A stretch of 64,000 bases of DNA from Isosphaeraceae bacterium EP7 (GTDB lineage: Bacteria > Planctomycetota > Planctomycetia > Isosphaerales > Isosphaeraceae): contig CP151667.1 of the NCBI GenBank assembly GCA_038400315.1, positions 3,421,174 to 3,485,173 of the forward strand, given 5' to 3'. The notes beneath the pieces are model-generated. The model was not told the origin of the DNA, ran no database searches, and saw only the letters and a program-made list of their open reading frames with translations. Positions within the stretch are counted from its first letter, which is position 1; each line of letters opens with the position of its first letter. A program made the translations under genes and the position numbers. Below, in pieces: positions 23,118 to 35,302 of this stretch.

Positions 23118-23399
23118 CGGGTTCTGGCTCCGGGTCGGGCGGCTTGAATCGAAGGCGACGCGCCGGCCGTTGGAGCGGGCCGGCGGGGGATTATGGGCCG
23201 AGGCCGCCCCACCCGCCAGACTCTTCATCAAACTTTCATCCGACCACATCTGGATCGGATTGGAAATTCCGGGCGAGTTTCGCGGTCTCTTCATCGACTC
23301 GACATCGGCCCATTATGGCCGGTCCCTACACTCTCGTCTCAGACATCGAGGCCGGAGAGGCCTTCGCCCTACTTTTCCACTCTTCCGGAGCCGAGCCAC

Positions 23400-24548
23400 G
23401 TGAGACTTCGCACCCACCGAAGCCCGTCCCGTCCGGGCTTCACCCTGATCGAGCTGCTGGTGGTGATCTCGATCATCGCCGTCCTGATCGCCCTGCTGCT
23501 CCCCGCCGTGCAGAGCGCACGAGAGGCGGCCAGGCGTGCGCAGTGCGTCAACAACCTGAAGCAGATCGGCCTGGGCTTCATGAACTTCGAGAGCGCCAAC
23601 GGCCATCTGCCGCAGGGCGCCTACGACGGCGACCCGCAGGCCGTCACCGCCTCGGGCCAGCCCGACCTTCCCTCGCGCAACTACACCGAGACCGTCGGGA
23701 CCTCCTATGAGGACTCGGTCTGCTGCAACTCGGCGTCTCCCAACGGCTGGAACCACTTCTTCAAGATCACGCCGTACATGGAGCAGCAGAACGTCTACAA
23801 TCTGGCCAACTTCAGCACCCCGCCGATCCATAACGTGTCGAACACGTATAACGGCGACTATGACGTGGCCCGAGTGGCGATTCCCGGCTTCTACTGCCCC
23901 AGCCGCCGCGCCCCGACCCGCTACGCGGGCACCCTCCTCGGCGCGGCGACCCTGATCGGCAAGAACGACTACGCCGGCTCGGCCGGGTTCATCCAGGGCC
24001 AGATCTACGAGTGCGACGGCTCCAACGGCAACTTCACGCCTGGCCGCCTCGTGCCCCCTCCCCCCAACGGCCTCCAGCCGATCGCCAACGAGCGCAATCC
24101 GATCAACGAAGGGGACACGTCGGGGCGCAAGGGTGCGATTATCCACGGCGTGCGTGGCAAGCGGAAGCTGGCCGACTTCCTCGACGGCACCTCCAACTCG
24201 ATCCTGGCCGCCGAGAAGAGCCTGCCCCCCTCGCGCCACGGCCTCGACGGCGGCGACAACGAGCGCTGGAACAACGCCGGCTGGGACGAGGACAACATCC
24301 GCTTCCACTTCGTCCCCGTGCCCGACCAGGCGGCGCCAGCCCTGAACGGCTTCTGTGCCACCCCCTCGGACCCCAGCACTGGCGGCAACCTCTGGCGGCG
24401 GATGTTCGGCGGCTCGCACCCCGGCGGCATCAACGCCGTGCTCGGCGACGGCTCGGTCCGCTTCCTCAAGTTCACGATCAACCCCAGCACCATGCGGCAA
24501 CTTGCGGTCATCGATGACGGCGAGGTCATGAGCGCCGACTCCTTCTGA
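23400..24548 (+). CDS. DUF1559 pseudopilin-like protein 2
   Basis: The pilin-type N-terminus is [19 protein letters not shown] followed by [27 protein letters not shown], and the C-terminus has [17 protein letters not shown] (H-X9-DG). I choose the GTG at 23400 as start: it gives a short basic leader ([12 protein letters not shown]) and has GGAG about 10 bases upstream; the open frame back to 23193 includes non-coding DNA. Length is 382 residues. The body contains [19 protein letters not shown], the usual DUF1559 pattern. A small lipoprotein gene follows after 48 bases, an arrangement common next to DUF1559 genes. Confidence 0.92.
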
Positions 24549-25181: not shown

Positions 25182-25258
25182 TGACCATGGGATGCTCCGG
25201 CCCGAGCACCAAGGGAAGGCGCATCCCGGGGTCCGGCGTCGGCCCCGGTGCCTGCCCG

Positions 25259-25281
25259 CGCGGCCGGAGGCCCTGGCCGCG
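25259..25281 (+). promoter_or_regulatory. Hairpin just upstream of the ribosome binding site, possible riboswitch expression platform
   Basis: CGCGGCC (25259-25265) pairs with GGCCGCG (25275-25281), with a 9-base loop. The purine-rich AGGACAGGA at 25284-25292 follows directly and precedes ATG 25303. The hairpin lies 78 bases after the aptamer, so it could link ligand binding to translation initiation. This is positional inference only. Confidence 0.3.
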
Positions 25282-25302
25282 TCAGGACAGGACCCTCGAC
25301 GG

Positions 25303-26301
25303 ATGATGATGCGTCTCAGTCGGAACAAGCAAGCGCCCCGCGCGGGCCGCGGCGGCTTCACGCTCATCGAGCTGCTGGTGGTCATCTCGATCATCGCCGT
25401 GCTGATCGGCCTGCTTTTGCCCGCGGTGCAAAGCGCCCGCGAGGCCGCCCGCCAGCTCCAGTGCCGCAACAACCTGAAGCAGGTCGGCATCGCCGTGCAT
25501 AGCTATCTGGCCACGGTGAACGTCTTCCCCAAGGCGGGCTTCGGTGGCTCGCTGGCCAATGACGCGGCGATGAACACCGCGGTCGCCCGGGCCAACCGGA
25601 TCGTCAGCTGGGGCACCGCGCTGCTGCCCGGCCTGGAGCATGGCCCCCTGTTCAACGCCATCAATCAGGGGGGCTGGTATCTGGAACCGATGAACCTGTC
25701 GGCCGCGCAGACGGCGCTCCAGGTCTTCCTGTGCCCGTCGAACCCCGCCGGGTCGGCCATGAAGCCCAACGGCGACAACCAGAGCTCGCCCCTCTTCGGC
25801 CGCAATGACTACGCCGGCAACTACGGCGAGCGTGTCCTGCGCTGCTACCCGAAGACCAACTGCCAGAACAACTATGCCGATCAGGGAGACCTCAGCGGGG
25901 CAGGCCGGGGCCTGACGCTGCTGGCCGCCAACAAGACCTTGCGCATCCAGGACATCATGGACGGCACGAGCACCACGATCCTCGCGGGCGAGGCCCCCGA
26001 GGCCCTGCACGGGCTCTGGGCCGGTCATAAGAACGTGCTCGACCAGAGCGCCCCGATCAACTCGCACTACGGCCGGGGCGCCTCGACTCCCTGGGAATCG
26101 TGCCAGGCCCTGACCACCAGCCCGTTGATGGGCCGGATCGGCTGCGACTTCGGCCAGGAGTTCCACAGCCACCATTCCGGCGGGGCAAACTTCGCCTTCG
26201 CCGACGGCTCGGTCCGCTTCCTCGCCCAGACGATCAACAACCAGACCTTCGCCGCGCTGCTGTCGCGCCGGGGTAAGGAGATCATCAGCCAGGATTATTG
26301 A
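25303..26301 (+). CDS. DUF1559 pseudopilin-like protein 3, downstream of the B12 riboswitch
   Basis: The protein has 332 residues from the first of three consecutive ATG codons at 25303. It has a pilin-type N-terminus [20 protein letters not shown] (about residues 16-35), then [27 protein letters not shown], and the C-terminal SHHSGGANFAFADGSVRF (H-X9-DG). It is shorter than the other two DUF1559 proteins. The in-frame ATG at 25192 lies too close to the riboswitch and lacks a ribosome binding site. Its 5' leader carries a cobalamin aptamer, so its expression is probably repressed by cobalamin. This is unexpected, since DUF1559 proteins have no known connection with B12. Confidence 0.92.
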   Translation: MMMRLSRNKQAPRAGRGGFTLIELLVVISIIAVLIGLLLPAVQSAREAARQLQCRNNLKQVGIAVHSYLATVNVFPKAGFGGSLANDAAMNTAVARANRIVSWGTALLPGLEHGPLFNAINQGGWYLEPMNLSAAQTALQVFLCPSNPAGSAMKPNGDNQSSPLFGRNDYAGNYGERVLRCYPKTNCQNNYADQGDLSGAGRGLTLLAANKTLRIQDIMDGTSTTILAGEAPEALHGLWAGHKNVLDQSAPINSHYGRGASTPWESCQALTTSPLMGRIGCDFGQEFHSHHSGGANFAFADGSVRFLAQTINNQTFAALLSRRGKEIISQDY

Positions 26302-26387
26302 TCCGATCACCCGGCGGGCCGGCGGCGTGGAGGTTGCCGCCCGCCGGCCTTCGGCGGTACGATCGAGCCGAGGAGGCCCATCCCACG

Positions 26388-26732
26388 ATGATCGCCACCG
26401 TGAAGCAACTGCTCGCCGGGCTCGGGTCCGGTATCGAGGCCACTCCGGGCGTCTGCGGCGGGCGCCCCCGCGTCGCAGGCACGAGGGTCCCAGTCTGGAC
26501 GCTCGAACGCTACCGGCGCCTCGGCATGCCCGAGGCCGAGATCCTGGCCAGCTATCCCACCCTGCGCGCCACCGACCTGGTCAACGCCTGGGCCTACGTC
26601 GACACGCATGCGGATGAGATCGAGCGTCAGATCGCCGAGGACGAGGGAGAGTCGCGTTGGCCAGGCTCTACGCCGACGAAAATTTCCCCCATGCCGTCGT
26701 CGCCTTCCTCCGGACCGACCACGACGTCCTGA
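26388..26732 (+). CDS. DUF433 antitoxin-like protein
   Basis: A 114-aa protein with the DUF433 pattern: EATPGVCGGRPRVAGTRVPVWTLERYRRLGMPEAEILASYPTL and DLVNAWAYVDTHADEIE (DUF433 is a winged-helix antitoxin family of VapB45 type). The ATG at 26388 follows GAGGAGG. The annotated frame overlaps the toxin gene by 76 bases; the last 25 residues (after about EDEGE) are serine- and proline-rich and unlike the family. This long overlap is unusual, since these pairs typically overlap by only a few bases, so a frameshift or read-through relative to an ancestral stop is possible. Its likely role is to bind the DUF5615 toxin and the operon promoter. Confidence 0.85.
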   Translation: MIATVKQLLAGLGSGIEATPGVCGGRPRVAGTRVPVWTLERYRRLGMPEAEILASYPTLRATDLVNAWAYVDTHADEIERQIAEDEGESRWPGSTPTKISPMPSSPSSGPTTTS

Positions 26733-26995
26733 CCCGTCGCGATGCCGGCCACGCCGGATTCGCCATCCCCGACGATCGCATCCTGGCCCTGGCGCACGCC
26801 GAAGGGCGGGCGGTGTTGACGCACAACCGCGTCGACTGCCGCCATCTCCATGAGGCCGGCCTCCCGCACAGCGGTATCATCGCCTGCACGATCGACCGCG
26901 ACCTTCAGGCGTTGGCCGCAAGGATCAAGGATGCGATCGATGCCGAAGGCGACCTTGCCGGCAAGCTGATCCGGGTCGTCCGACCGCCTGGATAA
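26657..26995 (+). CDS. DUF5615 PIN-like toxin
   Basis: A 112-aa PIN-like protein with ARLYADENFPHAVVAFLRTDHDV, then DRILALAHAEGRAVLTHNRVDCRHL and the SGIIACTIDRD strand. The conserved acidic residues of PIN-like nucleases are visible as Asp7-Glu8 (ADEN) and in the segment LTHNRVDC, where most DUF5615 proteins have TxDxDF. The start is TTG at 26657, with GAGGGAGA 6 bases upstream, and no ATG is available. It follows the DUF433 gene, as in VapBC45-type toxin-antitoxin pairs, and probably acts as an RNA-cleaving toxin. The asparagine in THNRVD in place of the usual aspartate may reduce activity. Confidence 0.85.
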   Translation: MARLYADENFPHAVVAFLRTDHDVLTRRDAGHAGFAIPDDRILALAHAEGRAVLTHNRVDCRHLHEAGLPHSGIIACTIDRDLQALAARIKDAIDAEGDLAGKLIRVVRPPG

Positions 26996-29754: not shown

Positions 29755-31335
29755 TCACGGCTCGCGGTGGTCGCGGGGTACGAGGCACCAGCGGATGGCA
29801 TCCATCTCGGAGAGGCCCTCGGGAATCGGCGGGGCGTTGCCACGGGTGGTGGCCATCCGGTCGAAGAGGGCCCGGCGCAGGCGGTCGCGGGCGGGCGTTG
29901 CGGCGGGGTCGTCGATCAGGTCGTGGGTCTCGTCGGGGTCGTCCCGCATGTTGAACAGGTGCTCGTAAGGGCCGGGCAGGGGCCTGCCGGTGGCGTAGCC
30001 GTCCTGCCTCTGGCGACGCCCGGTGCCGACGACCAGCTTGAAGCGCTGGGTGCGGACGACCGCCTCCTCGTTCTCGGTATACTCGCTGACGATGAACGCG
30101 CGACCCTCGGCGTCGGGCAGGACTCGCAAGAGCGGGACGAGGCTCTTGCCGTGCAGGTCGGGCGGGTCAGGCAGACCGGCCAGGTCGGTCAGGGTCGGGA
30201 ACAGGTCGACCAGCTCAACGAGCGGATTCACGCGGACGCCCGGCTTCAGGTGGCCCGGCCAGCGCACGAGCAGCGGGACGCGGATGGCGGGCTCGAAGCT
30301 GCAATGCTTCTCGAACCGGCCGTGCTGGCCGAGCATGTAGCCATTGTCGCCCACGAAGGCGACCACCGTGTCGCGGCCCAGGCCCGCGTCGTCCAGGGCG
30401 TCGATCAACCGGCCGACCTGGTCGTCGGCGTACGACAAGGCCGTGTAATACGAGGCCATGATCCTCCGCTTCTCGTCGTCGGTCAGCTTCGAGAAGACCT
30501 TGGGCTGGTCGCGCAGATCGGCCTCGGAGACGGCCGGAACGTTGAACTGGTCGGGCTTCATCCGGCGTGGCCAGTCGCGCGGGAACTTGAACGGGGAATG
30601 GGGCTGCTGGATCGAGACGACCAGCGCGAACGGCTTCGGCTTGTCGGGCCCTTCGTCCAGCGTCTGGTCCCCTTTCTTGCGGCGGGCGCGGAGGAACTCG
30701 ATGGCCCGGTCGGCGATGTAGGTCGACTCCATGTCGGCGCCCGGCAGGTCGACGGGCTCGATGGCGGCGTTGAGCCAGACGGGCGCGGGGTCGTTGAACG
30801 GGCGGAACGGCTTCAGGGCCTGCGTGGCCCCGGGGCGCCTTGCGTTCAGGTCCCTGGCCCAGTCGGCGGTGTCCAGCCGATGGGAGAAACCGTGCGTCAG
30901 ATTCGAGTTGAAGTGCATCTTGCCATAGGCGGCCGTGTCGTACCCCAGGTCGCCGAGCCAGTCGCCCAGGGTGACGACGGACTCGGGCAGGGGGGTGATC
31001 AGCTGCGTGACCCCGACGGCGTGCGGCATTCGGCCCGTGATGAACGAGGCGCGGCTGGCCGTGCAGACCGGCGCGTTGCAATAGGCGTGGTCGAACCGAA
31101 CTCCTTGCCCGGCAAGTGTATCCAGCCTGGGGGTCGCGGCCCGGGGGTCGCCGTCGATCCCGAGCAACCCCCCGCCCAGGTCGTCGCAGACAATCAGCAG
31201 CATGTTGGGCCGGTACGGCGGCGCGTCCACGGGCTGCTCGGCGTGTGCCTGCGAGTGCCGTATGTCGGGATGCACCGGCAGCAAGGCCAGAAGCAGGGCG
31301 ATCCGCCAGTGTCGTCGGGGGCCGGGGAGACGCAT
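29755..31335 (-). CDS. Secreted sulfatase with a CTASR active-site motif
   Basis: A 526-aa sulfatase of the S1 family, expected to hydrolyse sulfate esters of polysaccharides outside the cytoplasm. The signal peptide is HWRIALLLALLPVHPDI. The metal site begins with MLLIVCDDLGGGLLG (residues about 45-59). The active-site sequence is Cys91-Thr-Ala-Ser-Arg95 (NAPVCTASRASFITGR). The formylglycine consensus is Cys-X-Pro-X-Arg, so the proline is replaced by alanine. GKMHFNS and later YADDQVGRLIDALDDAGLGRDTVVAFVGDNGYMLGQHGRFEKHC are standard blocks. It follows the serine-hydrolase/NamZ fusion by 59 bases and is probably the last gene of that operon. The replacement may still allow conversion, or the conversion may differ. 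Confidence 0.92.
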   Translation of the reverse strand: MRLPGPRRHWRIALLLALLPVHPDIRHSQAHAEQPVDAPPYRPNMLLIVCDDLGGGLLGIDGDPRAATPRLDTLAGQGVRFDHAYCNAPVCTASRASFITGRMPHAVGVTQLITPLPESVVTLGDWLGDLGYDTAAYGKMHFNSNLTHGFSHRLDTADWARDLNARRPGATQALKPFRPFNDPAPVWLNAAIEPVDLPGADMESTYIADRAIEFLRARRKKGDQTLDEGPDKPKPFALVVSIQQPHSPFKFPRDWPRRMKPDQFNVPAVSEADLRDQPKVFSKLTDDEKRRIMASYYTALSYADDQVGRLIDALDDAGLGRDTVVAFVGDNGYMLGQHGRFEKHCSFEPAIRVPLLVRWPGHLKPGVRVNPLVELVDLFPTLTDLAGLPDPPDLHGKSLVPLLRVLPDAEGRAFIVSEYTENEEAVVRTQRFKLVVGTGRRQRQDGYATGRPLPGPYEHLFNMRDDPDETHDLIDDPAATPARDRLRRALFDRMATTRGNAPPIPEGLSEMDAIRWCLVPRDHREP

Positions 31336-31394: not shown

Positions 31395-33812
31395 TCAGGG
31401 GTAGATGAGGGCTTTCCGGCGGACAGCGGCGAATTGTTCGAGCTCCGCCTTCCAGCCCGCCCTGATGGTCGCGGGATCCTTGCCATCGACGATGCCGCGA
31501 TACGTCGCCTCATCGGTGATGAACTTCTCCAGGTTGGCCGGCTCCCAGGCGTCGCGATACGTCGAACGCAGGGTCGTGGCCATCCCGAGGAACAGGTCCA
31601 GCGGCTCGAAGGACGACCAGTCGGTGATCGCGATGAACACGCCGCCGCACTCCTTGCCGGAGAACTGGCGTTCCGTGGGCGTGAACCGGATCGGCACGAA
31701 GCGGACGCCCTTCAGGCCCAGGTCGTTCAGGGCCAGGGCGAACGCCATCGGCTCGATGTAGGGGGCCCCCACGCGTTCGAACGGCGTGTCGGTCCCGCGC
31801 CCCGTGGCGAGGTTGGTCGCCTCCAGCAGGCCGACCCCCGGATAGAGCAGGGCCTCGGTCAGGCTGCGCATGTTGGGCGACGGGTTCACCCACATCAGGC
31901 CCGTCCGGTCGTACAGATCGCCCCGGCGCCACCCTTCGCAGGCGATGACCGTCAGGTCGGCGTCGATCTTGCGCTCGACGTTGAAAAGACGTGCGAGCTC
32001 GCCCAGGGTCATCCCGTGCCTGACGGGCAGGGCGTGGTGCGCGATGAATGACTCATACTTGTCGTCACGGACCGGCCCGTCGAAGGCCAGGCCGCCGATG
32101 GGGTTGGGCCGGTCGAGCACCAGGAGCGGGATCCCTCGCTCCTTGGCCGCCACCATGGCCAGGCCCATGGTGCTCGTGTACGTATAGAATCGGGTGCCGA
32201 TGTCCTGGATGTCATACACCAGCACGTCCAGGTCCTTCAGCAGCTCGGGCGAGGGCTTGCGCTCCTTGCCGTAGAGGCTGTGGACGTGCAGGCCGGTCTT
32301 GGCGTCGACATCGTCGTCGACGATCGGCTTGTCCTCGACGCCCCGGATGCCGTGCTCGGGGCTGAACAGGGCGACCAGCTTCACCTCGGGCGCCTTGAAA
32401 ATGGCGTCGATCGTCGGGGTCCCGTCGCGCAACCGGCCGGTGTGGTTGGTGATCAGGCCGACCCGCTTCCCCTTCAAGGGGGCGAAGCCATCGCGGGCCA
32501 GCACGTCCACGCCGCAGAGGACCGGTACACGCTTCCCCTCGGCCGCGGGCGCCGGGGCCTCTGCGACAACCGGGTCGGGCGTCGGCTCGGGCGTCGGGAT
32601 CAGGGGGGGGCCGTCGACGATCGAGGCCGCCGCCAGCGTGGCCACCTCGCGCCTCAGCGCGATGGGCGAGGGGGCCTTGCCGTCGGGGTGCAGGCGGCTG
32701 GCCAGGATGATGACGAAGACGCCCGACTCCGGGTCCATCCAGAGGCTCGTGCCCGTGAACCCGGTATGGCCGAAGCTGGAAGGCCCGAACAAGGCCCCAC
32801 GCGGCGAGCTGTACGGCGTCGACACGTCCCAGCCCAGCCCCCGACGCTGGCCGACCGGGGTCGCCGCCGGGTCGATCATCGCCCTGACCGACAGCGGGCC
32901 GAGGACCCGGTTGCCCCCCGGCAGTTGTCCGCCGCCCAGGATCGCGCCGGCGTAGGCCGCCAGGTCGTCGGCGGTGGAGAAGAGGCCCGCGTGCCCGGCC
33001 ACGCCCCCCAGCTTCCTGGCCCTCGGGTCGTGGACCAGTCCCCTGAGGGGCGCGGCGCCCCCGCTGGGCTCGGTCGGGGCGATTCGGGTCGCGGGCACCG
33101 CGGCCGCCGGGCCGGCCGTCGGCCTGAAGTCGGTGTCCGCCATCCCCAGGGGCTTGAAGATGTTCTCACGTGCGTACGAGTCCAGGGTGCGGCCCGAGAC
33201 CCGCTCCACCAGCTTGCCCAGGACGATGAACCCCACGTCGGAATAGGCGAACCGCTCGCCGGGCGGCGCATCCAGCGGCAGCTCGGCAATCTTCTTCCAG
33301 GCCTCGGCCGGCCCCCCCGCATAGTCGGCGATCGAGTTGTCGGGCGTCAGGCCCGACCTGTGTCGCAGCAGGTGGCCGACGGTGATCCCCTTCTTGCCGT
33401 GGTTGTCCAGCTCGGGCAGGTATCTCACGATCGACTCGTCGAGCCGGATCAGGCCGCGCTCGACCAGGATCATCACCGAGGTCGCCGTCGCGACCGGCTT
33501 GGTCAGCGAGGCCAGGTCGAAGGCGGTATCGCGCGTCATCGCCTCGATCGCGGGGACGGTCGCCCGCTTGCCCGACGCCTTGGCGTAGACGAGCTGCCCG
33601 TGCCGGCCCACCAGCACAACGGCCCCCGGCACCTGCCCGGCGGCGATCGCCTTGTTCACCGCGCCGTCGATGAGCGCCAGCCGCGCGGCGTCCATGCCCA
33701 CGTCGCCCGGCGGCACCTCGCTCAGGTCCCCTCGCGCGTGGACCGGAATCATCAGGGCGAGCAGGCATAAGCCCAGGGCCAGAAGGCGGCCTCGTGCGGC
33801 AAGCTGGACCAT
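31395..33812 (-). CDS. Fusion of a serine hydrolase (beta-lactamase fold) and NamZ-type DUF1343 domain
   Basis: An 805-aa exported protein from ATG 33812. After the signal peptide (RLLALGLCLLALMIPVHA) the first domain (about 30-400) is a class C beta-lactamase-like serine hydrolase with Ser102-Leu-Thr-Lys105, FAYSDVGFIVLG for the tyrosine motif, and HTGFTG near 380. A proline-rich linker (LIPTPEPTPDPVV) follows. The second domain (about 425-800) is DUF1343, to which the exo-beta-N-acetylmuramidase NamZ belongs; visible marks are GKRVGLITNHTG, FSPEHGIRG, LVYDIQDIGTRFYTY, VLDRPNPIGG and NPSPNMRSLTEALLYPGVGLLE. Together the domains suggest removal of peptide side chains and MurNAc from peptidoglycan fragments. 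The symporter gene lies 32 bases upstream and the sulfatase downstream. Confidence 0.9.
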   Translation of the reverse strand: MVQLAARGRLLALGLCLLALMIPVHARGDLSEVPPGDVGMDAARLALIDGAVNKAIAAGQVPGAVVLVGRHGQLVYAKASGKRATVPAIEAMTRDTAFDLASLTKPVATATSVMILVERGLIRLDESIVRYLPELDNHGKKGITVGHLLRHRSGLTPDNSIADYAGGPAEAWKKIAELPLDAPPGERFAYSDVGFIVLGKLVERVSGRTLDSYARENIFKPLGMADTDFRPTAGPAAAVPATRIAPTEPSGGAAPLRGLVHDPRARKLGGVAGHAGLFSTADDLAAYAGAILGGGQLPGGNRVLGPLSVRAMIDPAATPVGQRRGLGWDVSTPYSSPRGALFGPSSFGHTGFTGTSLWMDPESGVFVIILASRLHPDGKAPSPIALRREVATLAAASIVDGPPLIPTPEPTPDPVVAEAPAPAAEGKRVPVLCGVDVLARDGFAPLKGKRVGLITNHTGRLRDGTPTIDAIFKAPEVKLVALFSPEHGIRGVEDKPIVDDDVDAKTGLHVHSLYGKERKPSPELLKDLDVLVYDIQDIGTRFYTYTSTMGLAMVAAKERGIPLLVLDRPNPIGGLAFDGPVRDDKYESFIAHHALPVRHGMTLGELARLFNVERKIDADLTVIACEGWRRGDLYDRTGLMWVNPSPNMRSLTEALLYPGVGLLEATNLATGRGTDTPFERVGAPYIEPMAFALALNDLGLKGVRFVPIRFTPTERQFSGKECGGVFIAITDWSSFEPLDLFLGMATTLRSTYRDAWEPANLEKFITDEATYRGIVDGKDPATIRAGWKAELEQFAAVRRKALIYP

Positions 33813-33844
33813 CGCGGGAGGCTCCGTTGCAAGGTAAACCGGGT

Positions 33845-35302
33845 TCAGGATTTGGGCGTTGAAGACGCGGCCGTCGGCGACCAGGGCGGCAGCACGTAGC
33901 TGGCCGCCAGCCCCACCAGCACCACCGTCGACGACCCCACCAGCGCATACCAGGGCCACGCGAGCGCCGTGCCGAATGCGGCGTACGACACCGCAGCCAG
34001 CCCGGCCACGAACCCCACCAACGCCGACGCCTGCCCCACCCGGGTCGTCCAGACCCCCAGCAGGAACAGGCCCAGGATGATGCCCGTCACGAACGACGCG
34101 ATCTTCAGGGCCAGGCTCACCACGTTGTCATTCAGGCCGATCGCCCCGAAGGCCACGCCCATCTGCGCCAGGCCCCAGGCCGCCGTCATGGCCTTCGACA
34201 GCCGGAGCAGGTGGGCCTCGCTCGCCCCGGGGTGCAGCGGCCGGTACAGATCATTGATCGTCGCCGAGGCCGACGCGTTCAGCGAGCTGGAGAGCGTGCT
34301 CATCGCCGCCGAGAAGATCGCCGCCACGACCAGGCCCAGGATTCCCGTCGGTAACTCGTGCGCGATGAACGACGAGAACTCGCCGTCGCGACCCAGCGGC
34401 AGGGCCGGGGGGTGGTCCTGGTAGAATGCCCAGAGCGCCACGCCGATGAGCAGGAACAGGGCGAACTGCGCGAAGACCACCAGGCCGCTGGCCATCAGGG
34501 CACCCGCCGCCTGCCGCTCGGAACGCGCCGAGAGGTAACGCTGGACCATGATCTGGTCGGCCCCGTGGGTGGCCGTGTTCAGGATCATCCCGCCCACCGC
34601 GCCCGCCCAGAAGCTGTATGGCAGCGTGAGGTCGAACGTGAAATCGAACATCCGGAACTTGCCCGCCGCCGCCCCCCGGCTCACCAGCGCCTCCCAGCCG
34701 CCGTCGATCCGGTGGACCAGGATCCAGAGAGCCACCAGGGCACCGGCCATATAGATGAAGAACTGGATGACATCGGTCCAGATGACCCCTTTCATCCCTC
34801 CCAGATAGGTATAAATGATGGTGGCTGTGCCCATCACCACGATCGACGCGGGCAGGTCCCAACCCGACAGGTCACGCATCACGACCGCCGCCAGGAACAG
34901 GCGGAGGCCGTCGCCCAGCGTGCGGGTCACCAGGAAGAGCACCGCCGCCAGCGTCTTCGTCGCCCCGCCGAACCGCTGGTCCAGCACCTCGTAGGCGGTG
35001 TAGATCTCCCCCTTGAAGTACATCGGCAGCAGCACCGTCGACACCACCAGCCGGCCGAACAGGTAGCCGATCGCCAGCTGGAGGAACCTGAAGTCCCCTT
35101 TGTAGGCGATGCTCGGCACGCTCAGGAACGTCGCCGTGCTCGTCTCGGTCGCCACGATCGAGATCATCACCGCCCAGGCCGGGATGTTGCTCTCGCCGAG
35201 GAAATATCCCTTCAAGCCCTTGGCCGAGGAGCCTAGCCAGCTCCCAAGCAGCGTGCAGCCGACGATATAAGCGACGATGATCCCCAGGTCGACCGGGTTC
35301 AT
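33845..35302 (-). CDS. Sodium:solute symporter (SSS family)
   Basis: A 485-aa membrane protein of the SSS family with about 13 helices, from ATG 35302 (MNPVDLGIIVAYIVGCTLLG). Typical features are KGYFLGESNIPAWAVMISIVATETSTATFLSVPS (helix 1-2 region with the sodium site), the EIYTAYEVLDQRFGG loop, YTYLGGMKGVIWTDVIQFFIY and FSAAMSTLSSSLNASASATINDLY. The substrate cannot be read from the sequence. Because it precedes a NamZ-type hydrolase by 32 bases on the same strand, import of an amino sugar such as MurNAc, or a related sugar acid, is the best guess. It is probably the first gene of the symporter/hydrolase/sulfatase operon. Confidence 0.92.
   Translation of the reverse strand: MNPVDLGIIVAYIVGCTLLGSWLGSSAKGLKGYFLGESNIPAWAVMISIVATETSTATFLSVPSIAYKGDFRFLQLAIGYLFGRLVVSTVLLPMYFKGEIYTAYEVLDQRFGGATKTLAAVLFLVTRTLGDGLRLFLAAVVMRDLSGWDLPASIVVMGTATIIYTYLGGMKGVIWTDVIQFFIYMAGALVALWILVHRIDGGWEALVSRGAAAGKFRMFDFTFDLTLPYSFWAGAVGGMILNTATHGADQIMVQRYLSARSERQAAGALMASGLVVFAQFALFLLIGVALWAFYQDHPPALPLGRDGEFSSFIAHELPTGILGLVVAAIFSAAMSTLSSSLNASASATINDLYRPLHPGASEAHLLRLSKAMTAAWGLAQMGVAFGAIGLNDNVVSLALKIASFVTGIILGLFLLGVWTTRVGQASALVGFVAGLAAVSYAAFGTALAWPWYALVGSSTVVLVGLAASYVLPPWSPTAASSTPKS

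Follow-up and report, generated by a model that had tools for sequence, protein, structure and literature searches.

Isosphaeraceae bacterium EP7 carries, side by side, genes for a sodium/solute symporter and for a predicted secreted protein in which an AmiE-like serine hydrolase is fused to a NamZ exo-muramidase. Together, the two gene products quite probably make up the outer part of a pathway that scavenges MurNAc and uses the peptidoglycan of other bacteria as food. The AmiE-like domain would strip the peptides from MurNAc, and the NamZ domain would cut MurNAc off the non-reducing end of glycan fragments. Sodium-coupled uptake by the symporter would then deliver MurNAc (or the MurNAc-GlcNAc disaccharide) to the cytosol, where MurK, a BadF-type kinase, would phosphorylate it at C6, and MurQ would take off the lactyl ether to yield GlcNAc-6-phosphate for catabolism; any disaccharide taken up would be split by a cytosolic NamZ (NamZ2). 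The initial annotation had read the gene order as peptide removal, MurNAc release and import, a reading supported by the predicted intracellular pathway and by the way the symporter gene stays linked to NamZ or MurQ across genomes. All coordinates (Table 1) are positions within the window, the whole stretch of 64,000 nt that was analysed.

Table 1. Features of the symporter and fusion region.
Feature	Position	Strand	Evidence
SSS-family sodium/solute symporter, probable MurNAc (or MurNAc-GlcNAc) importer, 485 aa	33845..35302	-	Pfam SSF, TIGR00813, clade
Secreted fusion, AmiE-like serine hydrolase and NamZ exo-muramidase (predicted), 805 aa	31395..33812	-	domains, motifs, fold
Probable Sec signal peptide of the fusion, MVQLAARGRLLALGLCLLALMIPVHA	33735..33812	-	sequence
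Beta-lactamase-fold (AmiE-like) domain of the fusion, residues 50-390 (804-aa numbering)	32640..33662	-	Pfam, motifs
NamZ domain (NamZ_N and NamZ_C) of the fusion, residues 450-804 (804-aa numbering)	31398..32462	-	Pfam, motifs, fold
Sulfatase directly downstream of the fusion	29755..31335	-	CTASR signature at 91

The fusion protein

ORF and Pfam analysis placed the two genes as first described, on the same strand, with the fusion downstream of the symporter and 32 bases (33813-33844) between them. The fusion ORF runs from an ATG at 33812 to a stop codon ending at 31395, and a hydrophobic N-terminus was found in 49 of 54 fusions. That a serine hydrolase with an SLTK motif and a DUF1343/NamZ region share one polypeptide was confirmed: SLTK lies at residue 102 and the Pfam domains are complete. 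In 804-aa numbering, the matches were Beta-lactamase at 50-390 (252 bits), NamZ_N at 450-650 (271 bits, complete model) and NamZ_C at 654-803 (139 bits, complete model). Chance or artefact as the source of the fusion was ruled out by the open reading frame, its strong codon bias (third-position GC 0.91) and the 54 loci of relatives in which both domains are joined in a single open frame. Neither is the fusion something new. In the species collection, 586 stretches encode relatives of it, and the 80 loci kept from these reach Acidobacteriota, Verrucomicrobiota, Gammaproteobacteria and Armatimonadota; the fusion is widespread across several phyla, and its parts are known families.

The second half of the protein is a complete NamZ domain (DUF1343, GH171-type), with predicted muramidase activity. 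The superposition on NamZ structures proposed in the initial annotation gave a TM score of 0.91 (2.2 Å, 37% identity) between the modelled half and 4k05, and of 0.88 with 4jja. The cleft motifs SPEHG, RHGMT..GE, SPN and GRGT are all present, and the residues conserved in the fold are kept: E486 (SPEHG), H599, E605 (GELA) and R672 in 805-aa numbering. The E, H and R positions were invariant in 26 fusions aligned with both solved structures, and it is on this conservation that we assign them as putative catalytic residues. Loss of the NamZ active site, which had been raised as an objection, was ruled out by the invariance of the motifs in these 26 fusions. In the hydrolase half (805-aa numbering), the motifs are S102-L-T-K105 (SxxK), Y190-S-D and H349-T-G, and their Ser, Lys, Tyr and His were likewise invariant in the 26 aligned fusions.

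The symporter and its genomic linkage

The symporter scored above cut-off with both Pfam SSF (140 bits) and TIGR00813 (223 bits). SSS proteins carry many different substrates. The nearest solved structure was 5nv9 (200 bits), the sialic acid transporter SiaT of Proteus mirabilis; the two proteins are only distantly related, and the substrate of SiaT is, like MurNAc, an acidic N-acetylated sugar. The symporters linked to NamZ or MurQ formed a single clade (100/99, 44 rows) that extends to Acidobacteriota and whose peculiar invariant residues include E53, R134, H246 and Q279. In SiaT numbering, the carboxylate-binding Arg135 is absent from the equivalent column of this clade and the Na2-site Leu59 is replaced by Thr. 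Of the other sodium-site residues, the equivalent of Asp182 is kept in 39 of the 44 linked symporters (Glu in the other five), and those of Ser345 and Ser342 in 43 and 33, respectively.

Across 26 good Isosphaerales genomes, NamZ, MurQ and the symporter were all present in 22 and all missing in 4 (p 7e-5, uncorrected for kinship). The symporter, fusion, MurQ and kinase genes are contiguous in two genomes (G330 and G331), and MurQ, symporter and fusion are clustered in distant planctomycetes and in Acidobacteriota. In several genomes the symporter lies away from the fusion, and there it mostly adjoins murQ. Because linkage to NamZ or MurQ is conserved, the symporter is probably an importer of MurNAc or MurNAc-GlcNAc.

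The cytosolic half of the proposed pathway

A search of the genome for MurQ or MurK, also proposed in the initial annotation, revealed MurQ and a MurK-like kinase in a second locus, a murQ-murK(BadF)-namZ2 operon; MurQ was above its curated cut-off (362 bits, against 302 for TIGR00274), which rules out the lack of a MurNAc pathway. The best solved match of the kinase was the MurNAc/GlcNAc kinase MurK (8zo3, 138 bits), which makes MurNAc its putative substrate, although no curated model matched it above cut-off (the only match, NagK, was far below). NamZ2 starts right at the domain, without a signal peptide, and in most genomes with this operon its gene overlaps that of the kinase by 4 bases.

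Comparison to known systems

The closest characterised cluster is murQ-murR-murP-amiE-nagZ-ybbC (namZ) of B. subtilis, which serves recycling (PMC5061867). Both systems have an AmiE-like hydrolase, NamZ and MurQ, with digestion outside the cell followed by import, as predicted for EP7. However, AmiE and NamZ are separate proteins in B. subtilis and a single polypeptide in EP7, the PTS transporter MurP has its place taken by an SSS symporter and a BadF kinase, the B. subtilis NagZ has no counterpart in the EP7 genome, and the EP7 genes are split between two loci. Clusters in Neobacillus and Planomicrobium have a B. subtilis-like order, with nagZ between amiE and namZ; the NamZ half of the fusion shares 46% identity with the separate NamZ of the Neobacillus murQ cluster.

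A sodium-symporter-type importer encoded with a kinase and MurQ is also found in Tannerella forsythia (murT-murK-murQ), whose MurNAc importer has been placed in the sodium symporter superfamily (PMC5790795, PMC5388701). T. forsythia lacks MurA and MurB (PMC7670621) and, in contrast to the use proposed here, its MurNAc goes into its own wall. The MurT family is conserved within Bacteroidetes (PMC7670621), and we compared MurT by description only. The MurK of T. forsythia apparently belongs to another subfamily than the EP7 kinase, which matched 1zbs, a near structural relative of the T. forsythia enzyme, with only 24 bits (PMC10465942).

Alternative substrates and activities

The hydrolase half could be an esterase or a D,D-peptidase instead of a MurNAc-L-Ala amidase, which we consider unlikely. 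Its solved relatives are mostly esterases or D-peptidases, and among NCBIfam models PBP4B (YfeW) scored highest, at 147 bits far under the cut-off of 385; YfeW of E. coli, a serine hydrolase of the same fold but unfused, sits beside murQ-murP in the MurNAc operon (PMC5061867). Against this, the half is 38% identical over 379 residues (224 bits) to the protein at the amiE position of the Neobacillus murQ-amiE-nagZ-namZ cluster, and it is joined to NamZ in several phyla. Regarding the symporter, its relation to SiaT and its separation from the fusion in several genomes would fit a carrier of sialic acid, a released peptide or a neutral sugar, linked to the fusion for some other reason. This seems rather improbable, given that the separated symporters mostly adjoin murQ, that the gene is missing where NamZ and MurQ are missing, and that the linked symporters group together in a single clade marked by invariant residues not shared outside it; sialic acid transport in particular was set aside because the linkage is to MurQ and NamZ. 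Somewhat less doubtful, but still tentative, is import of the MurNAc-GlcNAc disaccharide to be split inside by NamZ2, as the missing signal peptide of NamZ2 and the overlap of its gene with the kinase gene may suggest. However, the secreted fusion is the only NamZ in many genomes, so that free MurNAc must be the substrate there.

The initial annotation offered two uses for the pathway, recycling of the cell's own wall and feeding on other bacteria, and framed them with a long-standing view that planctomycetes lack peptidoglycan. That framing needs correction: peptidoglycan synthesis is known for the phylum (PMC4432640, PMC4432595), and most of the synthesis genes are missing from one order, Isosphaerales, in which a published comparison reports the loss of murA, C, D, F, G, J and ftsW (PMC12283558). 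In the relative Paludisphaera borealis, mraY is listed as present, yet the gene set is incomplete (PMC5352709). In the EP7 genome, MraY, the sole wall synthesis gene searched there, had no match above cut-off, and two weak matches were WecA-like. The genome search also yielded no GH20, no AnmK and no GH3 match for NagZ, although the same GH3 search was positive in 10 of 14 controls; AnmK and NagZ are the enzymes looked for as markers of Gram-negative anhydro-muropeptide recycling. Recycling of the cell's own wall by these enzymes would be in line with the role of the B. subtilis cluster, with wall synthesis in the phylum and with the fusion relatives in Acidobacteriota and Verrucomicrobiota; the lack of NagZ, AnmK and any MraY above cut-off and the loss of most lipid II genes in the order make it the least probable of these alternatives. 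Of the two uses, we favour feeding: with the lipid II synthesis genes largely gone from Isosphaerales, peptidoglycan of other bacteria is the most likely substrate. Without NagZ and GH20, the proposed pathway leaves the removal of GlcNAc between MurNAc units unaccounted for.

Implications of a probable feeding pathway

Scavenging from other bacteria would give a widespread planctomycete family a testable diet and would explain why bacteria whose wall-synthesis genes have decayed retain muramic acid enzymes; the genes for these enzymes would then be no sign that such a cell has a wall of its own. The candidate MurNAc transporter clade, common to Planctomycetota and Acidobacteriota, may be useful for tracing the turnover of dead bacteria. 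A more speculative possibility, which we hold with low confidence, is that a lineage which abandoned peptidoglycan synthesis keeps, as a conserved trait, a two-stage eating pathway made of the secreted fusion, an SSS clade specific for MurNAc or MurNAc-GlcNAc and a cytosolic, disaccharide-splitting NamZ alongside MurK and MurQ. If true, there would be a muramyl-sugar transporter family across phyla, and a NamZ working inside cells.

The neighbouring sulfatase

A sulfatase does follow the fusion, as initially annotated, with 59 bases from the fusion stop to its start. As a linked partner it did not hold up: within the family, just 6 further genomes have it next to the fusion, so we set it aside as a working part, and it is probably a mere neighbour.

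The fusion gene and its neighbours

The initial annotation had proposed a possible peptidoglycan amino-sugar scavenging operon of a symporter gene and a serine hydrolase-NamZ fusion, followed by a sulfatase gene, and the arrangement itself is confirmed: the fusion gene lies 32 bases downstream of the symporter gene, and the sulfatase gene 59 bases downstream of the fusion stop. The fusion begins with a probable signal peptide, MVQLAARGRLLALGLCLLALMIPVHA, and carries Beta-lactamase (252 bits), NamZ_N (271 bits) and NamZ_C (139 bits) domains, with a Pro/Ala-rich linker between the first two. Parts and pathway alike belong to known types; what sets the system apart is how they are combined, the lineage that carries them and the clade of its symporter, and no description of the fusion or the clade was found in the limited collection of literature searched.

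Features of the window and, in the last row, of the source genome's murQ operon (locus L003)
Feature	Position	Strand	Basis
SSS symporter	33845-35302	minus	matches SSF; over TIGR00813 cut-off
Serine hydrolase-NamZ fusion, 805 aa	31395-33812	minus	Beta-lactamase, NamZ_N, NamZ_C matches
Sulfatase	29755-31335	minus	CTASR formylglycine signature
Two small overlapping genes	26298-26995		by eye, DUF433/DUF5615-type toxin-antitoxin pair
Two proteins with type IV pilin-like N-termini	23193-24548; 25192-26301		by eye, DUF1559 kind
NamZ2	L003:9218-10915 (G000:C1)		C-terminal domain (~150 aa) matching Oxidored_molyb, 48 bits

A sulfatase is also found near the fusion in six related genomes; we know of no substrate in peptidoglycan for such an enzyme. 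Proteins of the DUF1559 kind are common in planctomycetes.

The AlphaFold2 model of the fusion has a mean pLDDT of 87, with disorder confined to the linker; since its pTM is low (0.54), the mutual placement of the two halves is not fixed by the model. Using Foldseek, the serine hydrolase half matched family VIII esterases, EstG and DD-peptidases, and the NamZ half matched 4k05 (TM by target 0.91, rmsd 2.2 Å, 37% identity) and 4jja (TM 0.88). An alignment of 26 fusions, drawn from several families of planctomycetes, shows invariant residues in both halves: Ser and Lys of SLTK, Tyr190 and His349 in the hydrolase half, and Glu486 (SPEHG), His599, Glu605 and Arg672 in the NamZ half. Both the NamZ fold and the residues conserved within it are retained, and conservation suggests that Glu486 and Glu605 are catalytic.

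A predicted cytosolic MurNAc pathway

The source genome (7.2 Mb, 99.9% complete) also has the MurNAc pathway that the initial annotation would have it contain: an operon of murQ, a BadF-type kinase and a second NamZ (NamZ2). MurQ scores 362 bits with TIGR00274 (cut-off 302). Among solved structures the kinase best matches 8zo3, which carries the annotation MurNAc/GlcNAc kinase; because the operon's kinase scores far below the cut-off of the NCBIfam NagK model, the name MurK rests on this match and on context. In the source genome and most others with this operon, the NamZ2 gene overlaps the kinase gene by 4 bases and its product starts directly with the domain; NamZ2 therefore lacks a signal peptide, unlike the fusions, 49 of 54 of which have a hydrophobic N-terminus. 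The contrast suggests that NamZ acts extracellularly as well as in the cytosol. The NamZ2-Oxidored_molyb fusion recurs in one other genome (G304, locus L060); in another (G297, locus L042), an Oxidored_molyb-like stretch closely follows NamZ2 on its strand but is not part of its reading frame.

Co-occurrence and the symporter clade

Among 45 genomes of Isosphaerales, the order of the source genome, NamZ was found in 39, MurQ over the cut-off in 35 and an orthologue of the symporter in 36; where NamZ was missing (six genomes), so were MurQ and the symporter. When only genomes with a completeness of 90% or more and no more than 5% contamination were considered (n=26), 22 had all three and four had none (p = 7e-5, an optimistic value owing to the kinship of the genomes). 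In many genera the symporter gene immediately precedes the fusion; in G294, G295, G316, G317 and G320-G325 it immediately precedes murQ instead, and in G330 and G331 symporter, fusion, murQ and kinase form a single run. MurQ, symporter and fusion also cluster in distant planctomycetes (loci L077, L078, L092, L095, L097, L108 and L157; L076 has a NamZ without the hydrolase) and in Acidobacteriota (L134, L164 and L169).

A tree built from 67 SSS proteins groups 44 linked symporters into one clade (support 100/99), which three more distant linked symporters join (100/96). All 17 unlinked SSS proteins in the tree fall outside it, and three further SSS proteins that merely lie close to such loci place elsewhere. 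Residues E53, T54, Q75, R84, R134, Y184, H246 and Q279 are present in all 44 and rare in other SSS proteins. These patterns are good evidence, although not proof, that the clade shares a substrate tied to MurNAc use. MurT of Tannerella forsythia, a known MurNAc importer, belongs to the sodium symporter superfamily (PMC5790795). A more distant SSS branch (~32% identical) is found downstream of the same fusion at L133, L167 (Gammaproteobacteria) and L173, and places at the base of the MurNAc-linked clade.

Feeding or recycling

The scavenging reading is supported; as to its purpose, the initial annotation had allowed both recycling of the cell's own wall and feeding on other bacteria. The source genome, 99.9% complete, has no GH3 (NagZ), no AnmK, no GH20 and, over the cut-off, no MraY; two weak MraY matches score better as WecA-like. 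Loss of murA, murC, murD, murF, murG, murJ and ftsW has been reported for Pirellulales, Isosphaerales and Gemmatales (2025 comparison, PMC12283558), and a published CAZy table shows no GT28, to which MurG belongs, for three of the four Isosphaeraceae (PMC5352709); however, murB, murE and mraY are listed for Paludisphaera borealis (PMC5352709). Together, these absences and the reported mur losses suggest that MurQ serves to catabolize wall material of other bacteria, and we favour such feeding over recycling. With neither NagZ nor GH20 in the genome, NamZ by itself would be enough to process MurNAc-GlcNAc units that glucosaminidases leave behind.

Origin and spread of the fusion

Neobacillus (L180: murQ, serine hydrolase, NagZ (GH3), NamZ) and Planomicrobium (L175: murQ, PTS EIIBC, MupG, serine hydrolase, NagZ, NamZ) encode each half in a gene of its own, in the same layout as the B. 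subtilis MurNAc cluster, murQ-murR-murP-amiE-nagZ-ybbC (PMC5061867). The window fusion is 38% identical to the Neobacillus protein in the amiE position and 46% to its NamZ. On this evidence the fusion combines AmiE with NamZ and omits NagZ. The fusion is not rare: a search of the species collection gave 586 matching relatives, of which the best 80 loci extend to Acidobacteriota, Verrucomicrobiota, Gammaproteobacteria and Armatimonadota.
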